Shown here: positions 809 through 18,846 of the stretch, piece by piece
Layout: the number at the start of each line of letters is the position of its first letter
Position numbering within the stretch: the stretch's first letter is position 1
IMG/VR virus record: IMGVR_UViG_3300020416_000073
Span: 1-20,894 of that record
Source: a virus
Strand: one strand, 5' to 3'
DNA: 20,894 bases
The notes under the pieces: model-generated
Seen by the model: the letters and a program-made list of their open reading frames with translations, nothing else
Told to the model about the DNA's origin: nothing
Databases searched by the model: none
Position numbers and translations under genes: made by a program

Positions 809-1051
809 TTATGATAAGTCTCGTGACAAAATAAAGCTCTGTAATTCTACAAAGCCACCTATCATCTTACCATCAACAAAAACCATTGGAACTGTTTTCC
901 ATCCATTGGCATGTTCAAGCACTTGGTCTCTGGCAATATCTTTACCAATGACCAAATTCTCGTATTCTATACCTTTTACTTTAAGCAAAGCTTTAGCCGC
1001 CTCACAGTAACTGCAAGGCGGTGATTCTTTAGTGTACAACTTAATGTTCAT
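809..1051 (-). CDS. Glutaredoxin (NrdC-like)
   Basis: This 80-residue protein has the thioredoxin fold of a classical dithiol glutaredoxin: beta-strand IKLYT, redox motif C13-S-Y-C16, the TVP cis-proline loop at 53-55, and the glutathione-binding GG at 65-66. It would pass electrons to disulfides in the cytoplasm. T4 carries NrdC for its ribonucleotide reductase, and here the gene is close to a class II reductase whose C-terminal cysteine pair needs such a reductant, so it probably serves that enzyme. It begins at a TAATG junction with the pseudoazurin stop (one-base overlap). Its length is normal for a phage glutaredoxin. The non-standard CSYC in place of CPYC is seen in functional homologues. 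Confidence in the family is high; the partner is inferred. Confidence 0.92.
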   Translation of the reverse strand: MNIKLYTKESPPCSYCEAAKALLKVKGIEYENLVIGKDIARDQVLEHANGWKTVPMVFVDGKMIGGFVELQSFILSRDLS

Positions 1052-1485
1052 TAAATATCTTCTAGAAGTTTTTTAAACTTCTTCTTACTTTTACCTCTTA
1101 TCTTGATCTTTTTAATAGCATCAAGATTTGAAGTATCTTCACCAACTACTACAAGTGCAATCATGCCCATTGTAGCATGAGGTGTACACTGATACAAATA
1201 CACACCTGGGACATCGAATGTAATAGCAACTTCTGCGTTGTTTTTACTTTTCTTAGGAAGATCCCAACCTTCTGGGCCTCCAATAAAATGTACGTTATGT
1301 CCTTTAGATGTTGGTACCCAAGTAATTGTATCGCCTACGTCAATTCGAGCAATATCTTCACTATACAACATTTTCTCTTTGTCTCGCTTATTCAACATTT
1401 CAACAGTCATATCTGCAGCATTTGCAGATACAAGCATTCCTCCGAATAAACCGAGCATTATTACAATAAAATATACATTCTTCAT
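1051..1485 (-). CDS. Pseudoazurin-type blue copper protein with signal peptide
   Basis: Starting at ATG 1485-1483 (AAGGAAAAAGA upstream) gives 144 residues; the longer frame to 1533 would invade the reductase gene and adds no signal-like sequence. Residues 1-23 form a Sec signal peptide (basic MKN, a hydrophobic core, then ANA before ADMTVEML). The mature part matches pseudoazurin: VGDTITWVPTSKGHNV, VPGVYLYQC, TPHATMGM and a lysine-rich C-terminal helix. The four type I copper ligands are intact: H63, C100, H103 and M108, with the C-x2-H-x4-M spacing of pseudoazurin. Such proteins shuttle electrons in the periplasm, for example to nitrite reductase or cytochrome partners. It sits between the ribonucleotide reductase and glutaredoxin. 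It is a likely auxiliary metabolic gene of bacterial origin and differs from the plastocyanin of cyanophages. Confidence 0.9.
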   Translation of the reverse strand: MKNVYFIVIMLGLFGGMLVSANAADMTVEMLNKRDKEKMLYSEDIARIDVGDTITWVPTSKGHNVHFIGGPEGWDLPKKSKNNAEVAITFDVPGVYLYQCTPHATMGMIALVVVGEDTSNLDAIKKIKIRGKSKKKFKKLLEDI

Positions 1486-1501
1486 TCTTTTTCCTTCTAT
1501 A

Positions 1502-3418
1502 TTATATTTCACAATTACCAGCTGTACATGCAAGTTCCTGTGACCCTACAGTCATATCTTGTGTTTCATAACTTGCTAATACAGACCAATCAACGTTCTT
1601 TGGCATTTTAGTTAACATATCTTTATAAGCTTCCATATCACAATCTTGATACGGTGCTTGTTGATATGTATGATCACTGAATGGTAAGAATGAAACTCCA
1701 CTCATCCATTCAAAGTTTTTATGAACCCATGCACCTACTTCCATCCATTCTTCTTCTTTAACAGAAATAGTTACTGATGGTTTATGTTCACACCAATTTT
1801 TCTGATATGACAACCATAACTCTAACTGATCTATAGCAGACATATCAGTACGGAATACCGCATGATCTGGTGCTTTCATTGGGAATGAAAATACAGAAGT
1901 ATGTCCTGGATTCATTATATCGTCTTCAACTGGAAAACCAGCATCAACCATCATTTGCGTAAGCGGATCCTTCTTATCACCTCTAATGGTCCTGATATAA
2001 TAAGGATTATGCCTAGCATGTATACCTGAAGCTGCGTCAACAAGCTGCGATACAGTTCCACTAGGTTTGACACACGTAATGGCGGCACTTTGCGGTATGC
2101 CAATCTCTTTAGCAATCTTTGCATTTGTTTTAATAGCCCTTTCTTTAAGTTCTTTTAGAAGAGAATCAAGATCTCCTTCTTTGCCGTTAGTTAAAGGATT
2201 ATCCATAATTCCAGTGATTGATACACCCAGCAATCGTTCCTCTTCACAGTTCTTTCTCCATTCTTTACTTACATATTTAAAATTAACTAATGTAGATTGA
2301 AATGTTCCAAGAACGGCAGCAAGCTCTACCTTTTCCAAAAGAGTTTCCTTTGTATCTTCAGGTCTTACAACAACCTCGGAAAGATTACAGAACTCACGGT
2401 CACGAAGAATAATTTCACTACATGGATTAGTTCCATACTCATGACCTTCGGTATTACGTCTACCGTTTCTAGCAGCTTGTTCAGTTGCAGATGCACGGTT
2501 GAATATACCTCTTTCACCTGATTTAGAATCATAGAGTGCTTTCCATTCATCCATGAATATACCCATGTCAGGTTTTTCTGTATAACATGCAGAGTTATTT
2601 GCAAGAGCTCGTTGACCTTCATTTTCCCACCATTGTCCTGATTTTGCATGCCTCATTCTATCATCTGAAAGATTTGACAAAGAGATTAAAGCTGATCTTC
2701 TTACACCACCAACGACAACAATTTCTGCAATTTTACAAACAATATCATGGCATTCAATAGAACTTAACTTTCTACCTGCAGATCTTTTGAAAATTTCAGA
2801 TGTAAATTTAAATAGACCATTCAATGGTTCTGGACCTGAAGCTCTACCACCAAAAGTTTTGAGTGGTGTACCAGCTGGGCGTACTTTACTTAAATCCCAT
2901 TTTGGAATTTGTCCAATATACAACAGGCCAACGAGTTCTTTGAATGCTTTAGACCAACCTAACTTGGAGTCAGCAACTTGGATAACAGTATCTGTTTCAA
3001 AAAACTCTTCTGCTACTACAGGTAGTTTTGAAACGAATTGTCTTTCAACTGAAAAACCTACGCCTGTTCCATTCATTAGTACATACAAGATTTCATCAAA
3101 AGCTTGTACTCTATCAATTGCTACATATGAACAGTTATATCCAGCAATGTTTTCTCTCTTCAACGCTTCACCTGCCGTCATTAGACATCTCATAGAAGGC
3201 ATTACTTTACATTCTAATATTGCTTCTTCTAATTTATTTTTTAGTGATTTGTTAATTTTATACCCGTGCATTTCTCCCATATGATCTTGGAAAAAATCAA
3301 AGTATCTTTCTATTGTTTCACCCCAAGTTTCTCTGCGTCCTTTTTCTGGAAGCCAACGGGAATAACGTGATAAGTGAATAAACTCTTGGTAAAGAGTCGG
3401 CAAGTGGTTACTTGGCAT
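1502..3418 (-). CDS. nrdJ: Class II (adenosylcobalamin-dependent) ribonucleotide reductase, monomeric type
   Basis: The enzyme reduces ribonucleotides to deoxyribonucleotides for phage DNA synthesis. The 638-residue sequence follows the Lactobacillus leichmannii triphosphate reductase pattern: C96 (GYNCSY) as one active-site reductant, C333 in NPCSE as the thiyl-radical cysteine, C344 in FCNL as its partner 11 residues on, and a C-terminal pair C631/C636 (CTAGNC) that recycles the disulfide. The NGTGVGFSVE and VKPSGTVSQ motifs are also present. No tyrosyl-radical NrdB partner is seen, as expected for class II. The start at 3418 has GGAGAG six bases upstream. The length is short of the approximately 740 residues of the Lactobacillus enzyme but normal for phage versions. 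Glutaredoxin downstream is a plausible electron donor. Activity depends on cobalamin from the host or environment. The choice between diphosphate and triphosphate substrate is not determined. Confidence 0.93.
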   Translation of the reverse strand: MPSNHLPTLYQEFIHLSRYSRWLPEKGRRETWGETIERYFDFFQDHMGEMHGYKINKSLKNKLEEAILECKVMPSMRCLMTAGEALKRENIAGYNCSYVAIDRVQAFDEILYVLMNGTGVGFSVERQFVSKLPVVAEEFFETDTVIQVADSKLGWSKAFKELVGLLYIGQIPKWDLSKVRPAGTPLKTFGGRASGPEPLNGLFKFTSEIFKRSAGRKLSSIECHDIVCKIAEIVVVGGVRRSALISLSNLSDDRMRHAKSGQWWENEGQRALANNSACYTEKPDMGIFMDEWKALYDSKSGERGIFNRASATEQAARNGRRNTEGHEYGTNPCSEIILRDREFCNLSEVVVRPEDTKETLLEKVELAAVLGTFQSTLVNFKYVSKEWRKNCEEERLLGVSITGIMDNPLTNGKEGDLDSLLKELKERAIKTNAKIAKEIGIPQSAAITCVKPSGTVSQLVDAASGIHARHNPYYIRTIRGDKKDPLTQMMVDAGFPVEDDIMNPGHTSVFSFPMKAPDHAVFRTDMSAIDQLELWLSYQKNWCEHKPSVTISVKEEEWMEVGAWVHKNFEWMSGVSFLPFSDHTYQQAPYQDCDMEAYKDMLTKMPKNVDWSVLASYETQDMTVGSQELACTAGNCEI

Positions 3419-5438: not shown

Positions 5439-5726
5439 CTATTCCATGTGTTCAGTTAATTCATCAACTAAATCTGATTTGCTCTTGCGTCTGTCTAATT
5501 CAATACCGTGTTGACGACCTAATGCTTCAAGTTCTTTTTTATTCATATCATCAAGTGATTTACTTGATGGAGACTCATTCAATTGCTGTGGCGCGCTTGT
5601 GCCATTCCATTCTGCAATTTGTTCTGGACTCATAGAACCACTCTTTAATTTTTCACCATCAGGTGAATAGATTCCGTCAGCTTTGGCAACTGAATCTTCA
5701 AGCCAGCCAGCTTTTTGCATACCCAT
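5439..5726 (-). CDS. Small protein with a C-terminal HeH/SAP-like helix-extension-helix motif
   Basis: The protein has 95 residues. The first half (1-56) is polar and probably disordered. Residues 57-93 read LDDMNKKELEALGRQHGIEL followed by RRKSKSDLVDELTEH, the two-helix pattern of SAP, HeH and Rho-N-terminal domains: a first helix containing KKELEALG, a hydrophobic turn, and a second helix beginning KSKSDLV. Such motifs bind nucleic acid or act as small protein adaptors. It is joined by TAATG junctions to the EF-hand-like gene upstream. A virion-associated DNA-binding role would suit its setting, but this is inference. Confidence 0.7.
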   Translation of the reverse strand: MGMQKAGWLEDSVAKADGIYSPDGEKLKSGSMSPEQIAEWNGTSAPQQLNESPSSKSLDDMNKKELEALGRQHGIELDRRKSKSDLVDELTEHME

Positions 5727-6520
5727 TATTTGCTCCTTAAATCTTTAAGTGTTTTAGGCTTTGGTGCCTGTTTCATTTTTTCACCACCGGTTTTATTTTT
5801 ATCCGCTGGGTAATCTCTTTTCTCACCTTTACGATGCATGTCTAAAACTTTTTTAGTATTAGGTGCCATGTCTGGTTGCTTAGGTAAGTCAGGATTTTCT
5901 TCAGGTTCAACTTCAGCCGCTTTTGGTGAAGCTGCATGAGAAGCTTTTGCTTTCTCTTCTTGCATAATATCTACATAACTTTTTAGCACTGTGCTTTCGC
6001 CTTTCATTGATTTACTAATTGCCTTACGTCTTTTATGTAAGAACTTATCAGATGAATCTACATCACCGTCATTATCGATGTCTTTATCTTTTCGATCATC
6101 AAACTTTTTCTTGACCGCATCTTTATTTACCGGATCCATTTCACTTGTTATTTTTTTAATTCTTTTTTGAAATGGTGACTCACCAGCTCTGAATTTATTC
6201 ATTCCAGGTTTACCAGTTTGTTTTTTAGCTTTATTATCTTTTCCTAAGACATTCTTACTTGCTATTTTGACTTCATCTATTTCGACTTCTTCTTTTTTCA
6301 TTAAAGCGTCGTGGTTCTTCTTGGCATATGCATCAGCTTCATCTTTTGTTTTAAACTCAGCTACTTTCTTGCCATTTATATCGTAAACACAAAACATGCC
6401 AGTATCTTTATTTTTAGAAACATGACTCGTTGGATTCATATCATGATCTTTTTTAGGATCATAATCGTCTTGTAGCATGCTCATGTATGTTTGAGCTATG
6501 CTCCTCAGTTCTTTACTCAT
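5726..6520 (-). CDS. Lysine-rich protein with an EF-hand/dockerin-like calcium loop
   Basis: The protein has 264 residues, very rich in Lys, Asp and Glu, with little hydrophobic core. Residues 147-158 (DIDNDGDVDSSD) fit the canonical calcium loop: Asp at positions 1, 3, 5, 9 and 12, Gly at 6, Val at 8; a basic helix FLHKRRKAISKSM follows. Residues 41-69 (GMFCVYDINGKKVAEFKTKD then EADAYAKKN) form a small motif seen in phage accessory proteins. A second leader-like segment occurs at about 179-190 (LKSYVDIMQEEK). The start has AAGGAAAGG upstream. The single loop resembles one dockerin repeat rather than a paired EF-hand. It may be an internal head or scaffold-associated protein; calcium binding is inferred. 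Confidence 0.7.
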   Translation of the reverse strand: MSKELRSIAQTYMSMLQDDYDPKKDHDMNPTSHVSKNKDTGMFCVYDINGKKVAEFKTKDEADAYAKKNHDALMKKEEVEIDEVKIASKNVLGKDNKAKKQTGKPGMNKFRAGESPFQKRIKKITSEMDPVNKDAVKKKFDDRKDKDIDNDGDVDSSDKFLHKRRKAISKSMKGESTVLKSYVDIMQEEKAKASHAASPKAAEVEPEENPDLPKQPDMAPNTKKVLDMHRKGEKRDYPADKNKTGGEKMKQAPKPKTLKDLRSK

Positions 6521-7131: not shown

Positions 7132-7497
7132 TTAGTTATCTACTTTTTTACCTGCTCGCCACTGGAAACATGACCAGTATCGTGCTTTAAACTTGGGCCC
7201 AGGATTATCGCAGTTATGTCTGGCACGGAAAGAAGCTCTACGCTTAGGATCATCTCTTTTGATTTCCATGTTTGGATCACCGAAACGTACAACAACAACT
7301 TTGCCATTAGGACCCATAGTATAAACTTTAAATTTTTTATTAGGATTTTCGGAAGTTCTAATAGGATCATTGAGTGTTACTTTCTTTCCTTGGTATTCTG
7401 CTTCAACTAGTTCCAAGTCTTCATAAAGATCTACACACTCGCAGAACTCATCAATAGATTCTTCACTAAATTTTTTAAATTTATCCACCGAATTCAT
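7132..7497 (-). CDS. Conserved marine-phage protein with a C-terminal RARHNC...YWSC motif
   Basis: The protein has 121 residues. The N-terminus has FKKFSEES at 7-14, which resembles the head leader of its neighbours. The conserved part is VTLNDPIRTSENPNKKFKVY (40-59), then VRFGDPNMEIKRDD (70-83), and SFRARHNCDNPGP with ARYWSC at 89-110. The invariant-looking His94, Cys96 and Cys110 suggest a metal site or structural disulfide. I recall this as a widespread small family in marine phages and large algal viruses with no assigned function. It overlaps the 7481 gene upstream by 17 nt. It may be a virion protein. Confidence 0.75.
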   Translation of the reverse strand: MNSVDKFKKFSEESIDEFCECVDLYEDLELVEAEYQGKKVTLNDPIRTSENPNKKFKVYTMGPNGKVVVVRFGDPNMEIKRDDPKRRASFRARHNCDNPGPKFKARYWSCFQWRAGKKVDN

Positions 7498-7951
7498 GTC
7501 CTGCCACCCTTTTCATTTGTTTGTTAAATTCTGCCTGTGAAGGCTTTTCTTTATATAACCTTATAGAAATTTCAGGTCTGTCTTTACCTTTGATTCTCCA
7601 GTTCATTCCTTTTTCTTTATGCTCAGGTTTTGTAGTTTTTACAACTCGTCTTTTATAACCTGCTTCCCATGATTCTGGTTTACCGCTACCTTCACTCTTA
7701 AGATCTCTTATTTTCTTATCTATCCTTGCAACCTTTAAGTCACGCTTCTTTTGGTCAACGTCTACTGTTGAGATCCTTTCGTTCTTTTCGGAATCTTTAG
7801 CATCAAGGTATGCTGCAATAGCCATCTTTTGTTTTTTCTTATCTGACTTACCCTTGAACTGAGGTGCATCTGATTTTCTAAAATCTTTTACATAATCACC
7901 GGCTGTTGCATCTCTGCCCAGCTTTTCTAATAAAGTCTTAAGACTTACCAT
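7481..7951 (-). CDS. Basic head-cluster protein with leader-like N-terminus
   Basis: I chose the second of two adjacent ATGs (7951), which puts GGAG six bases away. The first, at 7954, would add one Met. The N-terminus MVSLKTLLEKLG resembles the leader peptides of the neighbouring genes (hydrophobic-x-Glu near residue 9). Residues about 17-50 contain GDYVKDFRKSDAPQFKGKSD followed by KKKQKMAIAAYLDAK, a repeated element of marine T4-like phage proteins, and the end has ISIRLYKEKPSQAEFNKQMK and VAGHEFGG. Charge is strongly basic with no membrane segment. It is likely a packaged or virion DNA-binding protein. Exact function unknown. Confidence 0.72.
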   Translation of the reverse strand: MVSLKTLLEKLGRDATAGDYVKDFRKSDAPQFKGKSDKKKQKMAIAAYLDAKDSEKNERISTVDVDQKKRDLKVARIDKKIRDLKSEGSGKPESWEAGYKRRVVKTTKPEHKEKGMNWRIKGKDRPEISIRLYKEKPSQAEFNKQMKRVAGHEFGG

Positions 7952-8561
7952 CATACACTCCTTTGTTAGTTACAGACATTGGCATAACAAAACCATTATC
8001 TTTTGCTTTTACCTGAGCTTCAATCTGACTTCTTGCATGTATATTACCTTCTTTTTGTTTACTATCTCGGATATGATATACAAACATTTGTTTATCACTT
8101 GTGTCAGATTTAACAACTGTTGGTTTAGTAACCTTTGGTTTTTGTCTCATTTTTGCAATACCGGCTTTTGCTTTTGCAAGTCTTTGACGATCTGCAGCGG
8201 CTTTCTTTAATCTAGCCAACTTGGCCTGAGCAGAATCTGCTCTGCCTGCTGTACTGAAGCGAAAGTTGCCTTTCTTATTAACAACGCTTGCTTTAGCACC
8301 TTTTGCAATAAGCGATCCAGTTTTCTTTACTGGTTTAGATGTTACTACTTTCTTTACACCTTTGGCTACTGCTTTAGTTGCTCTGTAAGGTACTGTTACG
8401 GGGAGAGTAAGTACCTTCTTAGCAGTTCTTGCAATGCCGCCAATGAATTCAGTAAGTTCTTCAAGTTCTTTATCATTTAACGTAGCAACATATTCATCAA
8501 ACTCTTTATCATTGAGCTCAAGGATTTTTTCTTCGTTGATATATGACTTAAAGGTTTTCAT
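7938..8561 (-). CDS. Histone-like basic protein with T4 internal-protein type leader
   Basis: It starts MKTFKSYINEEKI, closely like the T4 internal protein leader MKTYQEFIAE, with INE as the candidate prohead-protease site. An acidic helical segment follows (residues 14-43), then a long Lys/Ala-rich region (VAKGVKKVVTSKPVKK, AQAKLARLKKAAADRQ, and LAKAKAGIAKM) that resembles histone H1-like and HU-like tails. The C-terminal 50 residues (MFVYHIRDSKQKEGNIHARS) resemble a small folded domain. At 207 residues this would be a packaged DNA-condensing protein if the leader works as in T4. It begins at a TAATG junction. The leader homology is seen; packaging is inferred. Confidence 0.75.
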   Translation of the reverse strand: MKTFKSYINEEKILELNDKEFDEYVATLNDKELEELTEFIGGIARTAKKVLTLPVTVPYRATKAVAKGVKKVVTSKPVKKTGSLIAKGAKASVVNKKGNFRFSTAGRADSAQAKLARLKKAAADRQRLAKAKAGIAKMRQKPKVTKPTVVKSDTSDKQMFVYHIRDSKQKEGNIHARSQIEAQVKAKDNGFVMPMSVTNKGVYDGKS

Positions 8562-9445
8562 TATATGTCATCACCTGGATCTTTTATGTCAGCTTTAAAA
8601 ACTCTCTGTAAAGACTTCATTAGTTTTGGAACATCTTTCATCGGTATATTTACATATGCGCCTGTGAGTTTTCTTTGCATTCCTGGCATTGTTTTAGTTT
8701 GAGTTATCTGTAAACCTAGTCCGCCTGTTGCAGAATATCTTGTAAGTTGAACGTGTTGTGTTCCTGTAAAACTAGTAGACTCTTCAATATTTTCTACTTC
8801 TTCATATCTTACTATTTCACTACCTCTACCAACTTTAGGTTTTTGTTTCTTTTTGTTTCCTATATCAAAAGGCATTTTTGCTAGACTGACTTTATCTTTA
8901 GGAGCACCTTTTGCTTTTGCTAAAGCAGCTCTTTGAATTGGTGTCATTCTTTTCAATCGATTTTCGTTAGTTTCTGCATGCTTCTTAAATGCATCTTGAA
9001 CTTTAGGATCATCATATGCATCAGGATATTTAGCTTTAACAGCTCTCATAAGACCGCTGGTATTACCTTTAAATTTTCTATCCTTAAGCATTTTACTTAT
9101 GTCTTTTAGATGAATAGGATTAGTAGAATAAGCGATACCTGTAGGACCTCTCTTCTTTTCTGATAAATTCCAATGATCTCCATACTCAGTAACATGAGCT
9201 GATTCAACTTGAATATCTGGCATATCAAGTTTATGAGATTTTTTCTTCAATGCTTTCATAGCAGCATCTTTATCTCTCTTTGAAACCATTAACTTATTAT
9301 TTTTAAAGTAACCATCAATTCCTTTCTTTTTTAGGATTTTAGTTACTTCACCTTCATAACCTTCATTCTGGCCTGGTGTCATTTTCTTTACGTAATTTGC
9401 GTACTCATCAGTACCCATTTCGTATACTTCTTTAAAGCTTTTCAT
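8561..9445 (-). CDS. Multidomain basic protein of the head-leader cluster
   Basis: This 294-residue protein starts MKSFKEVYEMG, a leader variant. Residues 30-75 form a small alpha/beta domain (GYEGEVTKILKKKGIDGYFK, LMVSKRDKDAAMKALKKK) that resembles a putative double-psi or RRM-like unit. A second part (LTPIQRAALAKAKG-like, residues 150-180; actually KRMTPIQRAALAKAKGAPK) is basic. The C-terminus (THVQLTRY-like region, 225-290) has GTQHVQLTRYSATGGLGLQ and a Lys/Arg-rich end. Possible internal cleavage sites, VTE at about 84-87 and IEE at about 218-221, would divide the protein. It may be a precursor processed in the prohead. The domain descriptions are my reading and carry no family name. Confidence 0.65.
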   Translation of the reverse strand: MKSFKEVYEMGTDEYANYVKKMTPGQNEGYEGEVTKILKKKGIDGYFKNNKLMVSKRDKDAAMKALKKKSHKLDMPDIQVESAHVTEYGDHWNLSEKKRGPTGIAYSTNPIHLKDISKMLKDRKFKGNTSGLMRAVKAKYPDAYDDPKVQDAFKKHAETNENRLKRMTPIQRAALAKAKGAPKDKVSLAKMPFDIGNKKKQKPKVGRGSEIVRYEEVENIEESTSFTGTQHVQLTRYSATGGLGLQITQTKTMPGMQRKLTGAYVNIPMKDVPKLMKSLQRVFKADIKDPGDDI

Positions 9446-10782
9446 TATCCCCTCACCTTTGCTGCGAGGTCTTTATCTGCTTTTCCCCAAGTACCTGAAG
9501 ATTTAGTAGCAAAGGAGTTGACTCTTGCCAAACCCCATTGTGTTGGATTGGTCCCTGGTCTATGACCAGTTCTCCAAGCAGCAACACCTCTGTTGAAAAC
9601 TTGTCTTAATATACCCATAGGCATGCCTGACTTATCCGCCTTCTTTTTCAAAGCAGCTGTGACATCAGCCTCTGTTACAAACTGTTTAAATGTATGCACG
9701 TTATCCTCCCCGAACATTTTATTAAATTTTTTGGTGTGCTTTGACGGTTTAGTCTTCGCGCTTTTATCTCCAGGAGCAGGTTTATATGCTGCCGGATTAT
9801 CATCATCCATTTTTGCACCCTTCTTAAAGTGTCTATCACGAGCTGCTTTAGTCGATTTAGACATCTTTTTTCCTTTAGCGTCTTTTCCATAATATGGCTT
9901 AGGTTGTGTACCGGGTCTATCTTTAATATCTGGATCTTGGCCTGGTCCTCTATCTTTTTCTTCAAGTGGCTCAACTTGATTTAGCCAATATCTGTATTTT
10001 CCATTTGATGTTTCAATCAACAAATAATTGGTTCCAAGTTGTAAGACGTTACCTATTTCTTGCGTTTCTTTAATTACTGCTAGATCACCTTCTTCATATA
10101 AGTTACCTTCAACATATTCTTCTCTTTCATTAGATACTTTTTCAAGTTCAATGTGTTGACGATACTTGTATGATTCTTTAAGATTCATTCCTTTACGCAC
10201 ATCATTAAAAAGCTTTTGTGCTTCTTTGAATCCAGAAGGTAGACCTTTTGTAAATGTTTGAATATCATTATCTGCAGCAGCTGCTCTCATCTTGGAGGCT
10301 GACATGCCTGTAGCACCTTCCGCATCAGGATCTCTTACACCTGCAGATACAACGTTTATTCCTCCGTCAAAGTTATAGAAACCATGACGACCTTTAGTTT
10401 TATTATACTTATTTGCTAATGTTTGATACTCAGCAACTCTATCACTTCCAGCTACAATAGTAACTTTATTAAAACCTTGATCATAGAGTGATGATAGCAA
10501 CTCCATAATAGTTCTAATCTTCGAAGATATCATAATATTACGTGAATGTTTTGGAAACATCTTACGCATATACTTGATTTTATCTTTATATTGAAGTGGA
10601 TTCTTTTTAGGATCAGCCGACTGAGATGCATATATTTTATATGCAGAACCTCTTGCAGTTTTTGCTACTGCGGTAAGTAACTTCTCATGACCTATTGTTG
10701 GAGGATTGAATCTACCCCAAGCAATAGTGACATCCTTAGTGCCTTCAGTTACATACTGTGTAAAACTTTTAAGATTTAGCAT
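9445..10782 (-). CDS. Fusion: nicotinamide-nucleotide adenylyltransferase-like domain plus a second leader and a C-terminal phage domain
   Basis: Residues 1-14 are a leader, LKSFTQYVTEG. Residues 17-200 form a nucleotidyltransferase alpha/phosphodiesterase superfamily domain: GRFNPPTIGHEKLL with the T-x-G-H signature at 29-32, a VAGSDRVAEY segment at 110-119, and GMSASKMR at 159-166, the usual ISSTxVR position. Such enzymes join NMN or similar nucleotides to AMP, or make CDP compounds. Residues 235-275 are a small beta domain (GTNYLLIETSNGKYRYWL). After a basic disordered linker (KPAPGDKSAKTKPSKHTKKF) the sequence HTFKQFVTEA at 363-372 repeats the leader with its cleavage site, and the C-terminal domain (GMPMGILRQVFNRGVAAWRT, HRPGTNPTQWGLARVNSF) is a phage family with unknown function. 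The protein may be cut into two parts in the prohead. Substrate is unknown. Confidence 0.85.
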   Translation of the reverse strand: MLNLKSFTQYVTEGTKDVTIAWGRFNPPTIGHEKLLTAVAKTARGSAYKIYASQSADPKKNPLQYKDKIKYMRKMFPKHSRNIMISSKIRTIMELLSSLYDQGFNKVTIVAGSDRVAEYQTLANKYNKTKGRHGFYNFDGGINVVSAGVRDPDAEGATGMSASKMRAAAADNDIQTFTKGLPSGFKEAQKLFNDVRKGMNLKESYKYRQHIELEKVSNEREEYVEGNLYEEGDLAVIKETQEIGNVLQLGTNYLLIETSNGKYRYWLNQVEPLEEKDRGPGQDPDIKDRPGTQPKPYYGKDAKGKKMSKSTKAARDRHFKKGAKMDDDNPAAYKPAPGDKSAKTKPSKHTKKFNKMFGEDNVHTFKQFVTEADVTAALKKKADKSGMPMGILRQVFNRGVAAWRTGHRPGTNPTQWGLARVNSFATKSSGTWGKADKDLAAKVRG

Positions 10783-11164
10783 TCTGTCCGCCTGAAGGTT
10801 TTCTTAGTTTATTGCGATCCTTCTGGCGAACTTGTGGAAGTAGTTTTCTAGCCAATCTTTGGATTGCATTCTTTGCACCTGGTCTTGCTAACTTTTTCTC
10901 TAATGCACCTCTTGCTGCATAAGATAAATCTTGTTTACTCTTGTTTTTTAGGAACTTCTTTATTAAAACATTCTTAGCCTGTTTAATTGAACGTTTCCTA
11001 AGAGTATCTAAGTCGGCAATCTTTCTTCTGGCACGTTTAGCACCCATTTGTATCTTGGCTTTGTTGCGTCTTATTGCTTGTTTTAACTTCACACGTTGTT
11101 GGATAGTCAATAGCTCGTTGACTTCTTCTTCACTCATGTGATAGTACTTTTTAAACTCTAGCAT
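10769..11164 (-). CDS. Small highly basic protein, probable packaged DNA-binding protein
   Basis: This 131-residue protein starts MLEFKKYYHMSEEE, a leader-like peptide, then LTIQQRVKLKQAIRRNKAK and a series of Arg/Lys-rich helices (RARRKIADLDTLRKRSIK, KNVLIKKFLKNKSKQDLSY), ending with LIRKLLPQVRQ-like basic sequence (RLARKLLPQVRQKDRNKLRK). The basic residues are spread along amphipathic helices. I recall this architecture from many marine myophages, with the LPQV/LPKV element near the end. A role in binding packaged DNA or RNA is plausible. It overlaps the next gene by 14 nt. No enzyme motif is seen. Confidence 0.75.
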   Translation of the reverse strand: MLEFKKYYHMSEEEVNELLTIQQRVKLKQAIRRNKAKIQMGAKRARRKIADLDTLRKRSIKQAKNVLIKKFLKNKSKQDLSYAARGALEKKLARPGAKNAIQRLARKLLPQVRQKDRNKLRKPSGGQNAKS

Positions 11165-11183
11165 ATACTTTCCGCTCTTTCCA

Positions 11184-12416
11184 TCAGGATCGGGACGGTG
11201 TGTCCCAGCCTTTTATAACATTAGGGCTGAAGTTGTTTGTACTGAACTCCAACCGATCAACTAATTTTACTGCACCGCCTTTAAGTTTATCAATGGCAAC
11301 ATAACCTTCTACACCGGTTACTTTGAATCCATTCTTAGTCTTAACGAAGGTACTCATATTTGATAGTTTATCTAGTTTATTTATAATCTTTAGCTTCCCA
11401 TCGACTATAGCATTTTGTAGATCAAAAACAAGTTTAAGATTAGCTTTATTTCTTGATGAAAAGAATTTAAGCATCTTATCTCTTGCATCAACTTGTTTTG
11501 ATTTACCAGCTGGTGTAGATCTTTTGTCAATTTCTTTTTGAAACTTATCATTTATAAATTTAATTAAACTATCTACATGCCGAGAAGTATTAGTTACCTT
11601 CTGGCCTGCTCTTACATATTTGTTGTTGTGTGTTTCTATAACTGCTGCAAAATCTTTATTTCTTTCAATATCTCTGAGTGTTGAACTAGCAATCTTTTGA
11701 AATATCTTACCTGCTAATGATAATGCTTTTGTAACTTCTTTAGTATCTTTTTCTGATAAAGTAGCCGACACCATGCGTAAGTTAGCATCATCTGCCCATA
11801 GACCTTTTAGATTTTTTAAGCTATCTACATTTGGTCCATAAGATGCTTTCATATCTTCAAAGCTTCCGCCAGTATATTCAGTATGAAATACTATACCGAC
11901 TTTTGAAGATAATATCTTTTTAGCTAAATCTGATTTAGCTGGTACCGCATACACAATTGTATTAGGATGGAATGTTATATAACTTTCACCAGCAATTGTT
12001 TCTTTCTTAAGTTCTGGTTTCGTAAACATAATATCACCTTGAAGTACGTTCTTGATACCAGCACCTTTTAGTGCATCAAATGCTGCTTTTAATTTGTCTG
12101 ATAGATCACCGCTTGTATCAGCATCAATATCTGCATGATTCTTATAAACCTTTGGTGTTTTATTGAATACACCTTTCTTTGCAACAAAGAACTTACCGTC
12201 TCTTGGATCTTTTCCAGCAAAGACAGCAGGTGCACCATCCCACTTAACTGTAACATCAGTAGATTTAGAAGAGTTGCCTGCCAACATGTCTCTTAAAGAC
12301 CTAAGACCAAGTATAGCGTCTCTGGCACCTTTAACACCACCATAGATCACTTGATCTTCAATGTGAGTCATGTGTGTGTTTTTTTCTTCTTTCAGATATT
12401 GATTAAAAGTTTTCAT
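11184..12416 (-). CDS. Ligase/nucleotidyltransferase-like protein with a head leader
   Basis: This 410-residue protein starts MKTFNQYLKEEKN, a clear leader with an LKE site. Residues 55-63 contain VTVKWDGAPAV, giving a KxDG motif (K58), the nucleotide-attachment lysine of DNA ligases, RNA ligases and capping enzymes. Possible further nucleotidyltransferase motifs are FVAKKGVF (77-84), LQGDIMF (125-131), ITFHPNTIVYAVP (147-159) and KVGIVFHTEY (172-181). The rest (190-410) is helical and basic. Marine T4-like phages carry this family with no assigned function as far as I recall. It may seal or repair nucleic acid as the genome enters the cell, or modify host RNA. The catalytic reading rests on motif I alone plus plausible spacing. 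It starts at a TGATG junction with the thermonuclease gene. Confidence 0.8.
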   Translation of the reverse strand: MKTFNQYLKEEKNTHMTHIEDQVIYGGVKGARDAILGLRSLRDMLAGNSSKSTDVTVKWDGAPAVFAGKDPRDGKFFVAKKGVFNKTPKVYKNHADIDADTSGDLSDKLKAAFDALKGAGIKNVLQGDIMFTKPELKKETIAGESYITFHPNTIVYAVPAKSDLAKKILSSKVGIVFHTEYTGGSFEDMKASYGPNVDSLKNLKGLWADDANLRMVSATLSEKDTKEVTKALSLAGKIFQKIASSTLRDIERNKDFAAVIETHNNKYVRAGQKVTNTSRHVDSLIKFINDKFQKEIDKRSTPAGKSKQVDARDKMLKFFSSRNKANLKLVFDLQNAIVDGKLKIINKLDKLSNMSTFVKTKNGFKVTGVEGYVAIDKLKGGAVKLVDRLEFSTNNFSPNVIKGWDTPSRS

Positions 12417-12853
12417 CAGTTATCCAATGCTTTCACAGCTGTTACAACATGAGGTTCTGCGAGTTTTTTTCTATTTTGTAGATGTGCTTCGGCAATCTCT
12501 TCTTTTGACTGGCCATGATACCTTACTGCATGATGATTATCTACAAGTAACTGATTGATGTTGTGTTCTTTACCATACCATATCTCACCGAGTATTCTAC
12601 CAAATTTTCCTCTTGCATCATCTTTAAAAGTTTTAAGAATCAAATCACCGGAATTAGTCCACTTAGTTAAATAGTCTTTAGCTAAGTTTCCATATATTTT
12701 TTCATCAGCATCTGATGTTCTTGACTCAGGTGTGTCAATACCGTAAAGTCTTATTCTTTGTTTTTGTAGCCATACATCAAATCCTAGATCAATGTCGACA
12801 TCAATTGTATCTCCATCAACTACTTTGACTAAGCGACATTTATATTCATACAT
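12416..12853 (-). CDS. Thermonuclease (staphylococcal nuclease family)
   Basis: The 145-residue protein has the OB-fold nuclease pattern: VVDGDTIDVDIDLGF at the N-terminus with D15 of DGDT, then IRLYGIDTPESRT carrying R35, D40 and E43, and GKFGRILGEI with R86. These correspond to the calcium ligands and the two catalytic arginines of staphylococcal nuclease, so activity is likely. It would cut DNA and RNA to nucleotides. There is no signal peptide and no head leader, unlike its neighbours, so it probably acts in the infected cell, perhaps in host genome or RNA breakdown. It overlaps the gene upstream by 25 nt and has only a modest AAGGA ribosome site seven bases upstream. Confidence 0.9.
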   Translation of the reverse strand: MYEYKCRLVKVVDGDTIDVDIDLGFDVWLQKQRIRLYGIDTPESRTSDADEKIYGNLAKDYLTKWTNSGDLILKTFKDDARGKFGRILGEIWYGKEHNINQLLVDNHHAVRYHGQSKEEIAEAHLQNRKKLAEPHVVTAVKALDN

Positions 12854-13068
12854 AGTTCTTTCCTTATCTTTTGTTCCAGATGACTAACAAGTACTTTTCT
12901 CATTGTCACTGCTCTATTTCTATCTGTAAAAGAATATTCGCGGACATCATCGTTATCCACTCGAATACTGAAAACAAAAAAGGCACCTTTTTTATTAATA
13001 TTCGAAGCTGAACCAACAGCCATTCTTTCAGGATCGACTTTATGACCAAAATTAGTTTCTACTATCAT
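12829..13068 (-). CDS. Small conserved protein of unknown function
   Basis: The start at 13068 is chosen because AAAGGAAGGTT lies immediately upstream and the ATG forms a TAATG junction with the previous stop; the longer frame to 13098 would run into the upstream gene. The 79-residue product has a compact alpha/beta appearance: MIVETNFGHKVDPERMAVGS, a strand KGAFFVFSIRVDNDD, then YSFTDRNRAVTMRKVLVSHL, a basic helix, and a tail with a Cys. No catalytic motif is seen. It lies between the nuclease-like and thermonuclease genes in one transcript. Confidence 0.7.
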   Translation of the reverse strand: MIVETNFGHKVDPERMAVGSASNINKKGAFFVFSIRVDNDDVREYSFTDRNRAVTMRKVLVSHLEQKIRKELCMNINVA

Positions 13069-14438
13069 TAACCTTCCTTTACTACTATGTGAATGCATGC
13101 ATCTTCTGAAGTTGATGCTGCGTAATTAACAATAGCGTTTATAACACTATTGGCTCTTTTTCCCTTATTAGTAATTAATAAGTATGATGCATATGTTGCT
13201 GCATACTTTGCAACAATCCAAATCTTATCTTTCTTAGCAAGTTCTGCTTCAAAATTCCTTTCAGAAGTTCTATCTACTTTAGCAGCGTACTTTTTAAATA
13301 ATCCTATTTCCTTCTTATCACCCTTTGCCATTTTAAGACCTTGAGCTTTTATAGATGTATAAGGCGGAACAGTTTCATTCATATATCTTTTTGCAAAATC
13401 CATAAACACCGTCCAACCTGCACCACCAGCCCTTGCTGCCTTTTGAACTATTTCAAACTTAGATGCAGCCAAAGGTGCATTAGCACGGATATCCATTTTT
13501 CCATCTGGTTTAAACAATATGGTTGCCATCTTATTAGACCAGAAGTTTCCTCTTCCACTTTGAAGTAGTATCTTATCAAGAGTGTAAGCAGGTGAATCTG
13601 ATCTTGCTGGTGTTTGTGTTATGATTTTTGCTTTCTTCTTTACTTTTTTCAATGATATTGGAACTAATTTTCTTGAATCCAATAACTTCTTAATTGAAAG
13701 ATTTAAAGCAGATACTGAAGTTACATCTAATTCTTTCTTTAAATCCAATCCGTCTTCAATAGCCCATATATCACCAGGATTCCATTTATCATCTTTTAGT
13801 TTTCCTAATCCAGAATTTTTAAATGCAGTATCTTTTGCTTTATAGATGTATTGCATTTCTGGAGAATCTCTATGGAATGTGTGTTTAGTAGTTACATATC
13901 CTTGCCTAATCAATATCTGTCCAGATATGTATGCTGATACACCCCAGCTTGCATCGAGTTCTTCAAATGTTTGTTCCAAAGTAGTTTTACCTGTTGAAGC
14001 TCTACCTCTTGTTTTTTCCAATATTTCCGGTGTATAGTATTCTATTGGTTGATTTTTATATTTTAACATTGCAGCAAGATAATAGCACTGTTGTGTTTCT
14101 GCAAATGCTGTATTTTCTGTTCCTCCGCCTGATCCTTTACCTCCTCCAAAGACTGGTGATTTTGCAATCTTTGAGCTTGAAATCATATCACCATTTGTTT
14201 TATATAAAGTAAAAGCTTTTCCCGGATTGTCTTCAAAATCTTTTATTGAACCGTAGTTCTTTTCATCATCAGCTAGCTTGATTGTTTCGTTATCAATGGT
14301 AACTATATCTGCCTTTTGTTGAATAAGTCTTTTGAGGATTGAGAGACGAGGCTCATTTGTCTGCGAGTTAGGTTTATCCCACTCAGCAGGAGATAATGGT
14401 CTCATGCCTTCCTCCAAAAATGTTTTAAACTGTATCAT
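13068..14438 (-). CDS. Head-leader protein with possible PD-(D/E)XK nuclease core
   Basis: This 456-residue protein starts MIQFKTFLEEG, a leader whose LEE site is followed by Gly, as expected for prohead protease cleavage. A Gly-rich segment (FGGGKGSGGG) precedes ENTAFAETQQCYYLAAMLK, with E114 as a possible first acid. WNPGDIWAI at 219-227 gives D223, and VPISLKKVKKK at 259-269 gives an S-x-K in the usual place of E-x-K. The order Glu - Asp - x-Lys with these strand patterns is that of restriction-type nucleases and phage relatives. The C-terminal 170 residues (GGAGWTVFMDFAKRYMNET and onwards) look helical and membrane-free. A strong GGAGGAAGGC site before Met12 means a leaderless form could also be made. 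The fold assignment is moderate; DNA specificity is unknown. Confidence 0.75.
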   Translation of the reverse strand: MIQFKTFLEEGMRPLSPAEWDKPNSQTNEPRLSILKRLIQQKADIVTIDNETIKLADDEKNYGSIKDFEDNPGKAFTLYKTNGDMISSSKIAKSPVFGGGKGSGGGTENTAFAETQQCYYLAAMLKYKNQPIEYYTPEILEKTRGRASTGKTTLEQTFEELDASWGVSAYISGQILIRQGYVTTKHTFHRDSPEMQYIYKAKDTAFKNSGLGKLKDDKWNPGDIWAIEDGLDLKKELDVTSVSALNLSIKKLLDSRKLVPISLKKVKKKAKIITQTPARSDSPAYTLDKILLQSGRGNFWSNKMATILFKPDGKMDIRANAPLAASKFEIVQKAARAGGAGWTVFMDFAKRYMNETVPPYTSIKAQGLKMAKGDKKEIGLFKKYAAKVDRTSERNFEAELAKKDKIWIVAKYAATYASYLLITNKGKRANSVINAIVNYAASTSEDACIHIVVKEG

Positions 14439-14802
14439 TAATATATTTATACTTTTTCAACATTGACTCTTGAAGTTTATAAGCTTCAATTTCAAATGGT
14501 CTATCTAAATAATTTAAACTAAAATCCATTTCTTCACCACGTTCTGACTGACGGACATGCACCATTTCATGAAATACAGCAGTAATCAAATCGTCTTTAC
14601 TCATACCTTTTTTTAATTCTATTTCATGAAAAGTCTTTTCAATCATAACCTGAAAACCCTGTGTTCCTTTCATTTTTACTAACGAAAATAAAACATCAAG
14701 GTTCTTTTTACGAGGCATCAGTTCTTTCAACGCAAACCAGAAAGCATTCTCAACGAGTTGCTTTTCTGATTTAGATCCACCGATAATTTCAAAATAAATC
14801 AT
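14425..14802 (-). CDS. Small zinc metallopeptidase-like protein
   Basis: The 125-residue protein contains VFHEMVHVRQSE at 77-88, the HExxH zinc-binding and catalytic motif (H78, E79, H82), and PFEIEAYKLQ at 102-111 with a candidate third ligand E104 or E106. The spacing of about 22-24 residues from the motif to the glutamate fits gluzincin-like and SprT-like peptidases. The N-terminal half (KSEKQLVENAFWFALKELMP) is helical and followed by a strand region. It has no signal peptide or head leader. It may act on host proteins in the cytoplasm or in virion assembly. It starts at a TAATG junction and overlaps the next gene by 14 nt, with a late promoter-like box inside its last codons. Confidence 0.78.
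   Translation of the reverse strand: MIYFEIIGGSKSEKQLVENAFWFALKELMPRKKNLDVLFSLVKMKGTQGFQVMIEKTFHEIELKKGMSKDDLITAVFHEMVHVRQSERGEEMDFSLNYLDRPFEIEAYKLQESMLKKYKYINDTV
14444..14451 (-). promoter_or_regulatory. Late-promoter-like TATAAATA box at the head of the leader-protein cluster
   Basis: A perfect TATAAATA on the minus strand lies six bases upstream of the ATG of 13068-14438. Transcription from it would begin at or just within the first codons, and the next ribosome site, GGAGGAAGGC before Met12, would then be first in the transcript. Its place, exactly where the series of leader-bearing genes begins, argues for function. Confidence 0.45.
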
Positions 14803-16174: not shown

Positions 16175-17542
16175 TTACATTTTAAACCCTGAAAAATCCT
16201 TCATGTCTTCACCTGATTTAGTATTATCAAACACTGGTGTATCATCGGTGAGAGTCTGAGCATTTTCCTCAACATCATATAGTTTCATACGAGATCTATC
16301 TACACCAATAATAAACCTTTTAGTTTTACTTGGATCATTATATCTGTTCTTTAATTGCTTAACCATCATCTGGCCGAGTTTATCAAGTTCTTCGGTAGTA
16401 ACTAAGGCAAACATTAGATCCGCGGTAGCGGGTAATCCAAAAGATTCGGATGTATCTTCAAGCCCAACATCCGAGTTAGAATAACCTGAACGAGTCGTTT
16501 GCGTTGCAGTGACGACCGGTAAGTTGAACTCAACCGCAAGACCGCGTAATTCTTCAGCAATTGCTTTAACGTAAGAGTATGTATTGATTGCACCGCCTAA
16601 TCCTTTCATTCTAGAGCTTGAACATATATTAAGATAATCAATAAAGATTATATCTGGTGTAAAGTTTCTTTTAAGTTTTAATTCATTAAGTAATGCACGG
16701 AAGTGACCTGAATGAGCAGCACCTGTTGGATATTCCTTAATGATTAGTTTACCTACATTCTTTTGAGCTATCTTAGTAATCTTATCTTCAAACATAGTTT
16801 TGGATAATGCATGAAGTTGATCAATAGGTATATTCATGAGGTTAGCATCAATTCTTTCTGCTATTCTTTCTTCAGCCATTTCCAAAGTAATATACAAAAC
16901 ATTCTTACCGAGTGTAAGTACTGAAGCTGCATGATGACACATAAACAAAGATTTACCTACACCTGTGCCAGCAAGTGCAACATTCAATGTTTTGTTTGGT
17001 ATACCATCTTTAGTAATTTTATTGAAGTATTCAAGATCAAATGGAATCCTATCTTCAACCTTATGATAAAATTCAAACCTTTCATCTGAATTATCAATAT
17101 AGTCATGACCTACATTAGTGTCAAAACAAACACCAAGAGCGTCCGATAAAAGTTGTGGCAGTGCATCCTTTTTCAATGTGTTATGTTTACCATCAATAAT
17201 GTTTATTGATTCCATAATGGCAAGATAGATACTTCTATCCTGACACCACTTTTCAGTTTCATGAAGCAACCATTCTTCATTTACTTCTTTAGGTGTAAAC
17301 ACTTGGCCAAGTACTTCAGAAACACCAGGACCGTCTTTTATATTTGCATTAGTTAACTCAATTGATAATGCTTCTTGAGTTGGAAGCTTGTTGTATTTGT
17401 CAACGAACTCAACCACAGAGTCAAATACAACTCTATGATTGTTTTCAAAATATTCTTTCTTAAGAAATGGAATTACTGATCGAGTATAATCTTCATCATT
17501 AATTAAGTTTCTTAGAATTGTCGTTTGTATGTTTGGTTCCAT
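16175..17542 (-). CDS. 41: Replicative DNA helicase (T4 gp41, DnaB/RecA-like)
   Basis: The hexameric helicase unwinds DNA at the phage fork and works with primase. After an N-terminal helical domain (about 1-140), the RecA-like core has Walker A GTGVGKS at 193-199, LEMAEERIAER with the catalytic glutamate near 222, Walker B IIFID at 299-303, and TQTTRSG at 348-354 with a sensor Gln and arginine finger. Length and motif order match T4 gp41. The frame begins GTG ATG; I choose the ATG at 17542, one codon in, with GGATAGGTG upstream. It lies after UvsX and a small gene, the T4 order, and is followed by a terminator. The C-terminal 40 residues are acidic. Confidence 0.93.
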   Translation of the reverse strand: MEPNIQTTILRNLINDEDYTRSVIPFLKKEYFENNHRVVFDSVVEFVDKYNKLPTQEALSIELTNANIKDGPGVSEVLGQVFTPKEVNEEWLLHETEKWCQDRSIYLAIMESINIIDGKHNTLKKDALPQLLSDALGVCFDTNVGHDYIDNSDERFEFYHKVEDRIPFDLEYFNKITKDGIPNKTLNVALAGTGVGKSLFMCHHAASVLTLGKNVLYITLEMAEERIAERIDANLMNIPIDQLHALSKTMFEDKITKIAQKNVGKLIIKEYPTGAAHSGHFRALLNELKLKRNFTPDIIFIDYLNICSSSRMKGLGGAINTYSYVKAIAEELRGLAVEFNLPVVTATQTTRSGYSNSDVGLEDTSESFGLPATADLMFALVTTEELDKLGQMMVKQLKNRYNDPSKTKRFIIGVDRSRMKLYDVEENAQTLTDDTPVFDNTKSGEDMKDFSGFKM

Positions 17543-17831
17543 CACCTATCCTATAGTTGCCCGATTCAACAGCCTCAGTCATACAGTGCTGGAGAATAGC
17601 ACCAATATGATTACCAAAGTCTGGATCATTATCTAGTTTCATGTCTGTTGGGTTTTCAATTATTTGATATTTAAAATCAAGTCTTGCAATATCATCATTG
17701 CTTTCAACAACTGCTTTTACTTTTCCATAAGCATATATAACATCTTTATATATGCCTGTTTTTATTCTTATGCAATGATGTTCAGGGAACTTTTCATTGT
17801 CCATGAATGTATAATCATTCTCCGATATCAT
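17499..17831 (-). CDS. Conserved small protein between uvsX and the helicase gene
   Basis: The 110-residue protein overlaps UvsX by 17 nt and the helicase start by about 45 nt. It shows a strand-rich part (HHCIRIKTGIYKDVIYAYGK, then VKAVVESNDDIARLDFKYQI) and IENPTDMKLDNDPDFGNHIG before a helical, acidic end with Cys and a disordered Asn/Lys tail. Its position is that of T4 gene 40 and of conserved small genes of T4-like cyanophages between UvsX and gp41; I do not see the membrane features of T4 gp40. It may be an accessory of recombination or priming. The family is recognised by place and style, not function. The ribosome site is weak, implying coupling to uvsX. Confidence 0.72.
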   Translation of the reverse strand: MISENDYTFMDNEKFPEHHCIRIKTGIYKDVIYAYGKVKAVVESNDDIARLDFKYQIIENPTDMKLDNDPDFGNHIGAILQHCMTEAVESGNYRIGDGTKHTNDNSKKLN

Positions 17832-18846
17832 CTTTGTAATCTTCCATATTCACTACAGAACCAATCTGATAGTTTTTCTTTATATATTCTTTAAAGTCTG
17901 TAGTTTCAAAGATAGGTTTCCAAAACTCTTCGGTAAGTGTCTCTCCAACTCTTACTTTATTTTCTTCACCTGTTCGTTGGTACCAGCCTGGAGAAGGTTT
18001 AGTTACATATCCACCACCCATAGCTACATCAAGAAGACCTGACCATTTTTGGATGCCACCTTCCCATGAAACTGAAATAGGAATCTTTGACTTTTCACGT
18101 ACAAACCTTGATTTTTCAACATTAATGACAAAGTGATAACCTTTGATTTCTGTACCAACTTTATCCTGTTGTCTACCAATGATCCAAATATTATCAGCGC
18201 TGTAGTAGATACCTGTACCACCACCGACAATATCTTTTGGAAACAAACCAATTTCTTTATAAGTGTGGTTAACAGCAAGAAGAGGAATGTTTTTCATAGT
18301 AAGATATGGTGTAACCATTCTAAACAAACCTTTCAGTGCTTTTGCTCGTGACATATCAGCAACTGACTTTTCATTCAATGCATCTTCCATTTCTTTCTTT
18401 GATGCGAGGTTACCGATAGAGTCAATTACAATAATGACCTTATCATCTCTTTCTAAGTTTTCTAATTGACCTACCAAATCAAATTTTAATTTTTCAACAT
18501 CTGTGATAGGTGTATGTAGTACTCTATCAATATCAATACCAAATGTTTCAAAGTATTGTTGTGGAGAACCAAACTCAGAATCATAAAATAACATAACAGA
18601 TTCTGGGTGTTTTCTCATATATGCACTCGCTATTTTCAATGCGAATGAAGTTTTAAAGTGTTTAGATGCACCAGCCAAAACAGTAAGGCCTGAACTTAGT
18701 CCGCCTTCAACATCACCAGCTAAAGCAACATTAATCATTGGAACATCGGTTGTGACAAAATCTTTGTCACGGAAGAACTGCGATTTACTAAGGATAGCTG
18801 TTTCCTTAATCTTTGAGTTCTTTTTTAGTTTATCCATTATTGACAT
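17815..18846 (-). CDS. uvsX: UvsX recombinase (RecA-like)
   Basis: The protein forms filaments on single-stranded DNA and performs strand exchange for recombination-dependent replication and repair. Its N-terminus (MSIMDKLKKNSKIKETAILS) aligns in style with T4 UvsX. Walker A is GASKHFKTS at 59-67, E92 (YDSEFGS) is the ATPase glutamate, Walker B VIIVID is at 137-142, and the VNHTYKEIG and IVGGGTGIYYSADNI loops follow. At 343 residues it is slightly shorter than T4 UvsX. The start has GGAGATAATGA upstream, and the gap before it carries a promoter-like sequence. It is followed by the small gene and gp41, as in T4. Confidence 0.94.
   Translation of the reverse strand: MSIMDKLKKNSKIKETAILSKSQFFRDKDFVTTDVPMINVALAGDVEGGLSSGLTVLAGASKHFKTSFALKIASAYMRKHPESVMLFYDSEFGSPQQYFETFGIDIDRVLHTPITDVEKLKFDLVGQLENLERDDKVIIVIDSIGNLASKKEMEDALNEKSVADMSRAKALKGLFRMVTPYLTMKNIPLLAVNHTYKEIGLFPKDIVGGGTGIYYSADNIWIIGRQQDKVGTEIKGYHFVINVEKSRFVREKSKIPISVSWEGGIQKWSGLLDVAMGGGYVTKPSPGWYQRTGEENKVRVGETLTEEFWKPIFETTDFKEYIKKNYQIGSVVNMEDYKDDIGE

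Follow-up and report, generated by a model that had tools for sequence, protein, structure and literature searches.

We analysed a 20,894-base IMG/VR virus record (the window), a fragment of an uncultured phage known from sequence alone, in which a cassette of minus-strand genes (positions 7132-14438) encodes proteins that begin with related short peptides. Our analysis indicates that the common N-terminal peptide is very probably a capsid-targeting sequence like that of the T4 internal proteins, which a gp21-type prohead protease would cut and whose packaged cargo would be expelled into the next host. A first-pass annotation had proposed such head targeting with gp21-type processing, and the proposal is borne out by transfer of the leader profile to the T4 internal proteins, by corresponding sites in gp23 and gp21 of relatives, and by published virion mass spectrometry of tagged homologues. 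Membership of the leader in the class of capsid-targeting tags is well supported, as is packaging through homologues; for the window phage itself, we infer packaging, cutting, injection and action in the first minutes of infection.

The annotation had named at least five genes with related leaders and three with looser versions, and all of these peptides are present at the gene starts to which it assigned them on the minus strand. We scored N-termini with a strict T4-like pattern, M..[FYL]..[FYL][ILVM].E, and with a profile built only from T4, S-CREM2, S-CRM01, S-SZBM1, S-SM1, Syn9 and S-SCSM1 (the other-phage profile), for which the 99.9th percentile of shuffled N-termini is 10.8. Three window genes match the strict pattern: a DUF6267, ligase-like protein (11184-12416; PF19782, E 2e-99) with the leader MKTFNQYLKE (12387-12416), a basic 207-residue protein (7938-8561) with MKTFKSYINE (8532-8561), and a 456-residue protein (13068-14438; phrog_1462) that starts MIQFKTFLEEG (residues 1-10 at 14409-14438). 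Each has a predicted cut after E10, based on profile and homologous N-termini for the first, on pattern and profile for the second, and on pattern, profile and homologues for the third. A nucleotidyltransferase (9445-10782; phrog_3041 cytidyltransferase, E 4e-100), in which a CTP_transf_like part is fused to DUF5824, carries the same core shifted three residues inward, MLNLKSFTQYVTE (10744-10782), with a cut predicted after E13 from profile and homologues. With the other-phage profile the DUF6267 gene scores 20.5, the highest in the window, followed by 18.8 for 7938-8561, 11.9 for the nucleotidyltransferase and 10.8 for the 456-residue protein; these best four lie at or above the percentile given, and the eight named genes are eight of the top nine among the 35 window genes.

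The claim of at least five related leaders holds clearly for these four, by strict pattern or the same core and by profile. The fifth, MKSFKEVYEMG of a 294-residue protein (8561-9445), is weak (p 0.024; this and the following p values are from the other-phage profile), and its proposed VYE cut site is doubtful, the core fitting 0 of 7 homologous N-termini. The looser versions are indeed degenerate in the window, namely MLEFKKYYHMSEE in a basic 131-residue protein (10769-11164; p 0.056), MVSLKTLLEK in a 157-residue protein (7481-7954; p 0.028) and FKKFSEES in a 121-residue protein (7132-7497; p 0.004), and clean leaders occur in some of their homologues. Those of the 131-residue protein begin MLSFKQFVSE, MIGFKKYLTE and similar, the C-terminal domain of the 157-residue protein elsewhere follows clean leaders such as MMKTFSQYISE, and the homologue of the 121-residue protein in phage C48C1 starts MKKFKQYIDEG. 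Of the enzymes proposed as cargo, the nucleotidyltransferase and the ligase-like protein have a leader, whereas the only recognisable nuclease gene, a staphylococcal-nuclease-like gene inside the cassette (12416-12853; PF00565, E 6e-14), is without a leader, and the core is found in 0 of 9 homologous N-termini. Separately, a peptide YEMGTDEY...MTPGQ recurs in otherwise unlike proteins, encoded at 8561-9445 of the window and in contigs L013 and L038; in L038 it forms the C-terminus of a nucleotidyltransferase.

Conservation of individual positions was examined in alignments of homologues that were not chosen by pattern. Information maxima fall at positions 4 (F), 7 (Y/F), 8 (L/I) and 10 (E), while positions 5, 6 and 9 are more variable, position 5 being also conserved in the 456-residue family. 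For IPIII of T4, residues 4 and 7 are the main determinants of targeting and residues 8 and 10 those of processing (PMC9026906), and this position-by-position agreement, drawn from sequence comparison, is the strongest single argument for a putative capsid-targeting sequence. Rather than vanishing in homologues, the leader similarity is kept, with the core present in 37 of 43 distinct DUF6267 N-termini and 39 of 42 distinct nucleotidyltransferase N-termini. F7 and E13 are invariant in 23 nucleotidyltransferase homologues, and E10 occurs in 16 of 16 N-terminally complete homologues of the 456-residue protein. Structure models predict the leader to be disordered. In C48C1 (OQ984149, 63448-64857), the annotated cytidyltransferase start (63514) removes the leader; an upstream start yields MIKNFSQYLLEEE.

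A second profile was trained only on the DUF6267, nucleotidyltransferase and 456-residue families of marine contigs, with T4 excluded from training. Among 678 T4 open reading frames (ORFs), this cassette-trained profile ranks gp61.1, identified from the record annotation, first, and the ORFs recognised by sequence as IPIII, IPII and IPI second, sixth and eighth. A profile search across T4-like phages, which the first-pass annotation had suggested as a check, recovers the T4 internal proteins along with cyanophage virion proteins. The window proteins match no internal-protein family in PHROGs or Pfam; their mature parts are unrelated to those of T4: the tag is common and the cargo is not. After the leader, the cassette proteins themselves belong to unrelated families (DUF6267, nucleotidyltransferase, the 456-residue protein and the basic proteins). 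The best T4 match to the marine leader profile, gp61.1 (NC_000866, 18966-19130; 54 residues, hypothetical), starts MKTFKEFIKE, and the residues after its leader resemble gp23 around the cut site (16 of 32 identical). Its gene lies between those for gp61 and gp41, beside known anti-toxin genes.

Published virion proteomes of related phages bear on packaging. In S-CREM2, whose virion contains 52 detected proteins (PMC10665884), the top six of 219 annotated proteins by the cassette-trained profile (ORFs 154, 14, 13, 6, 136 and 137) are all virion proteins (PMC10665884; hypergeometric p 1.4e-4 with the cut at six chosen post hoc, and p 0.003 under other offset settings). A Fisher test of the strict pattern gives only p 0.012, with ORF175 (55 residues, ninth in the trained profile) matching and undetected in the virion. 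The virion also contains the Cas9-like ORF12, whose motif lies at residues 17-26; in g128, its relative in S-CRM01, the motif is similarly placed. In S-SCSM1 and S-SM1 the top profile matches are the nucleotidyltransferases reported in their virions (PMC9602691, PMC3037559), and the nucleotidyltransferase S-SZBM1_140, third in its genome by profile, is likewise present in the virion (PMC9146016). In S-CRM01 a kinase gene and the genes beside it have the leader, and a kinase is cited as a component of that virion. The DUF6267 proteins of S-SZBM1 and S-CREM2 are without a leader and are not on those virion lists. S-CREM2 ORF6 (OR473000, 3837-5081), which has a clean leader and is in the published virion, matches an S-adenosylmethionine (SAM) lyase family above the cut-off; it is likely an injected anti-restriction enzyme, which would fit the anti-restriction role of T4 IPI. 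A kinase-like protein of S-CREM2 is also among the tagged proteins. Since the best-tagged proteins are found in purified particles of related phages, marine T4-like phages probably carry ready-made enzymes into the infected cell. A second common module, approximately AxxLxLxxxGxGxWxDxxxG, follows the leader in unrelated enzymes (S-CREM2 ORF12 and ORF14, S-CRM01 g128 and g130, S-SCSM1_91 and S-SM1_190); it is internal in g130 and might act as a further signal for packaging or ejection.

The annotation had also suggested a check for gp21 and its other substrates; gp21 is found in complete relatives and in one contig and was not found in the window fragment. All nine complete genomes searched with the gp21 family, T4 included, contain it. 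Among the window and eleven cassette contigs gp21 was found only in G002, where it occurs together with gp23; the others are fragments. T4 gp23 is cut at FLTE↓A; at the aligned position relatives have LLTE↓A, FLAE↓A, FLSE↓A or FLTE↓T, and FISE↓A is found in G002. A comparable site lies close to the start of gp21 in relatives. Two cyanophages without gp21, S-CBWM1 and S-TIM5, were examined and show no convincing leader.

These observations suggest a mechanism in which the aromatic residues at positions 4 and 7 would bring the newly made protein into the prohead core, where the gp21-type protease would cut behind E10, or behind E13 in the case of the nucleotidyltransferase. The mature proteins would stay among the packaged DNA and then be expelled into the next host, and the cassette would represent a set of cargo genes with one tag. 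At least one cargo would consist of two parts, a nucleotidyltransferase and DUF5824, separated by a second cut site. At residues 363-371 (9670-9696), just N-terminal of DUF5824, this protein contains HTFKQFVTE↓A, an internal leader that the first-pass annotation missed and that scores 17.9 with the other-phage profile, the best of 5,499 internal positions (the next scores 10.1). A junction resembling FxxF/Y..E is present in many fused homologues and absent in some (for example in contigs L016, L018 and L028), and DUF5824 encoded as a separate gene tends to have its own leader. The simplest reading would be a gene fusion that retained the tag and whose product the prohead protease could therefore cleave in two.

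Several points weigh against delivery of tagged cargo by the window phage. The phage is represented solely by its DNA and all cut N-termini are predicted; gp21 was not found in the 20.9 kb fragment; the pelagiphage HTVC008M carries the same genes with only weak leaders; S-SZBM1_191, S-SZBM1_192 and S-SCSM1_30 have strong leaders yet are undetected in the published virions; and the authors who analysed the S-CREM2 and S-SCSM1 virions caution about possible carry-over of enzymes. The last three genes named belong to a second site of leader genes, where small tagged proteins are encoded near terminase genes and some neighbours were detected in virions.

Alternatively, the leader could target the prohead core and the proteins could act there as core or head proteins instead of reaching the host as enzymes. 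This tag would bring in core proteins as well, a number of the cargo proteins are small and basic, and delivery is not something that virion mass spectrometry reveals. We nevertheless consider this unlikely, since enzyme signatures are kept in several of the tagged proteins (the nucleotidyltransferase motifs and KWDG in the window, the SAM lyase and kinase-like protein in S-CREM2) and the T4 internal proteins that bear the tag are injected (PMC9391042). A far less probable explanation is that the virion detections reflect contamination by abundant enzymes and that the leader acts otherwise, for example by docking to the replication machinery encoded alongside; the cassette does adjoin replication genes, and carry-over is the concern raised by the authors just mentioned. 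Against it, the S-CREM2 virion list lacks abundant replication proteins but includes tagged proteins from three widely separated regions of the genome; moreover, the tag serves as a predictor in four phages and corresponds to the T4 tag at the individual positions. Chance similarity or leftover homology of duplicated genes deserves almost no credence: the shortness of the motif and the marginal scores of four of the eight leaders taken singly speak for it, but with the cassette-trained profile only 9 of 109,500 shuffled N-termini reach 12 while four window genes score at least 18.5, and the parts after the leader come from unrelated families.

Returning to tagged cargo delivered to the host, what the cassette enzymes might do can be read in part from their sequences. 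The nucleotidyltransferase keeps GRxNPPTxGH and GMSASK, and DUF6267 has an invariant K58-W-D-G61 resembling ligase motif I; the best fold matches of its predicted model are RNA and DNA ligases, none of them significant. No function for the 456-residue protein emerged from profile searches of Pfam, PADLOC and PDB, and its predicted model found no relative in PDB. Assignment of the basic proteins as CRISPR proteins was rejected, the PADLOC matches being weak and resembling composition matches. A first-response counter-defence role for the window cargo would be plausible. More tentatively, and with somewhat more doubt than conviction, we propose that a generic tag loads a modular set of enzymes (nucleotidyltransferase and ligase-like here; kinase, SAM lyase and Cas9-like nuclease in relatives) that may be injected as a first-response counter-defence kit, and that internal tags may allow fused cargo to be divided within the head, by the prohead protease, into two proteins that are both injected.

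The leader resembles those of T4 IPI, IPII and IPIII in being a ten-residue N-terminal peptide with key positions 4, 7, 8 and 10 (PMC9026906, PMC3012670), in preceding mutually unrelated mature parts, and in belonging to a phage group with a gp21-type protease. The window system differs in that its cargo includes large enzymes, clustered in one cassette and with one internal second tag, that its mature parts are unrelated to those of T4, and that packaging and injection are deduced by comparison. Cytidylyltransferase or NMNAT-like proteins of cyanophage virions (S-CREM2 ORF154, S-SCSM1_91, S-SM1_190 and S-SZBM1_140) also bear the leader, lie in or near the corresponding cassette and were detected in virions; the window protein differs from them in carrying DUF5824 as a fused part, preceded by an internal leader. 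The accessible parts of these virion studies do not mention the leader. Giant phages phiKZ and SPN3US are alike in that a gp21-like protease cleaves head proteins, some of them ejected, behind a glutamate; apart from that residue few determinants of their sites are reported, and the likeness is one of description, not of sequence (PMC9026906). Although the T4 head-targeting tag is known, clustered enzyme cargo behind it appears to be new; a tag of this kind in marine T4-like phages is named in no open-access paper that we found, subscription journals lying outside the search and priority being uncertain. The leader provides a sequence rule for predicting head-carried proteins of marine T4-like phages, one that also flags the uncharacterised T4 candidate gp61.1. 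It further suggests how the cytidylyltransferases and kinases that recur, unexplained, in cyanophage virions may get there, and opens their early action in the host to direct test.

The minus strand of the window carries T4-like genes, among which the cassette lies between a gp41-like helicase gene (16175-17545) and a ribonucleotide reductase gene (1502-3418); a uvsX/recA-like gene (17815-18846) is also present, all three assigned from sequence reading and synteny with relatives. No phage of the annotated collection matches the window at the DNA level, and contig L012 is 99.66% identical to it over 19.7 kb. Protein comparison places phage C48C1 and Methylophilales phage Melnitz nearest among complete relatives, followed by Stenotrophomonas phage DLP6, HTVC008M and many cyanophages. 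Melnitz has both the DUF6267 and the nucleotidyltransferase gene, along with further tagged proteins. The cassette precedes the ribonucleotide reductase genes in C48C1, Melnitz and HTVC008M, and in the latter two it immediately follows the gp41-like helicase. Directly upstream of the cassette, a leaderless small protein (14425-14802, minus strand) contains an HExxH-type motif (FHEMVHVRQ) and, judged by eye, is possibly a metallopeptidase. What appears by eye to be a small blue copper protein-like gene of plastocyanin or pseudoazurin type (1051-1533, minus strand) adjoins the ribonucleotide reductase gene. A 264-residue protein (5726-6520, minus strand) resembles part of a cytidyltransferase family as well as unknown PHROGs, and its internal LKSYVDIMQEE may be a further cut site.

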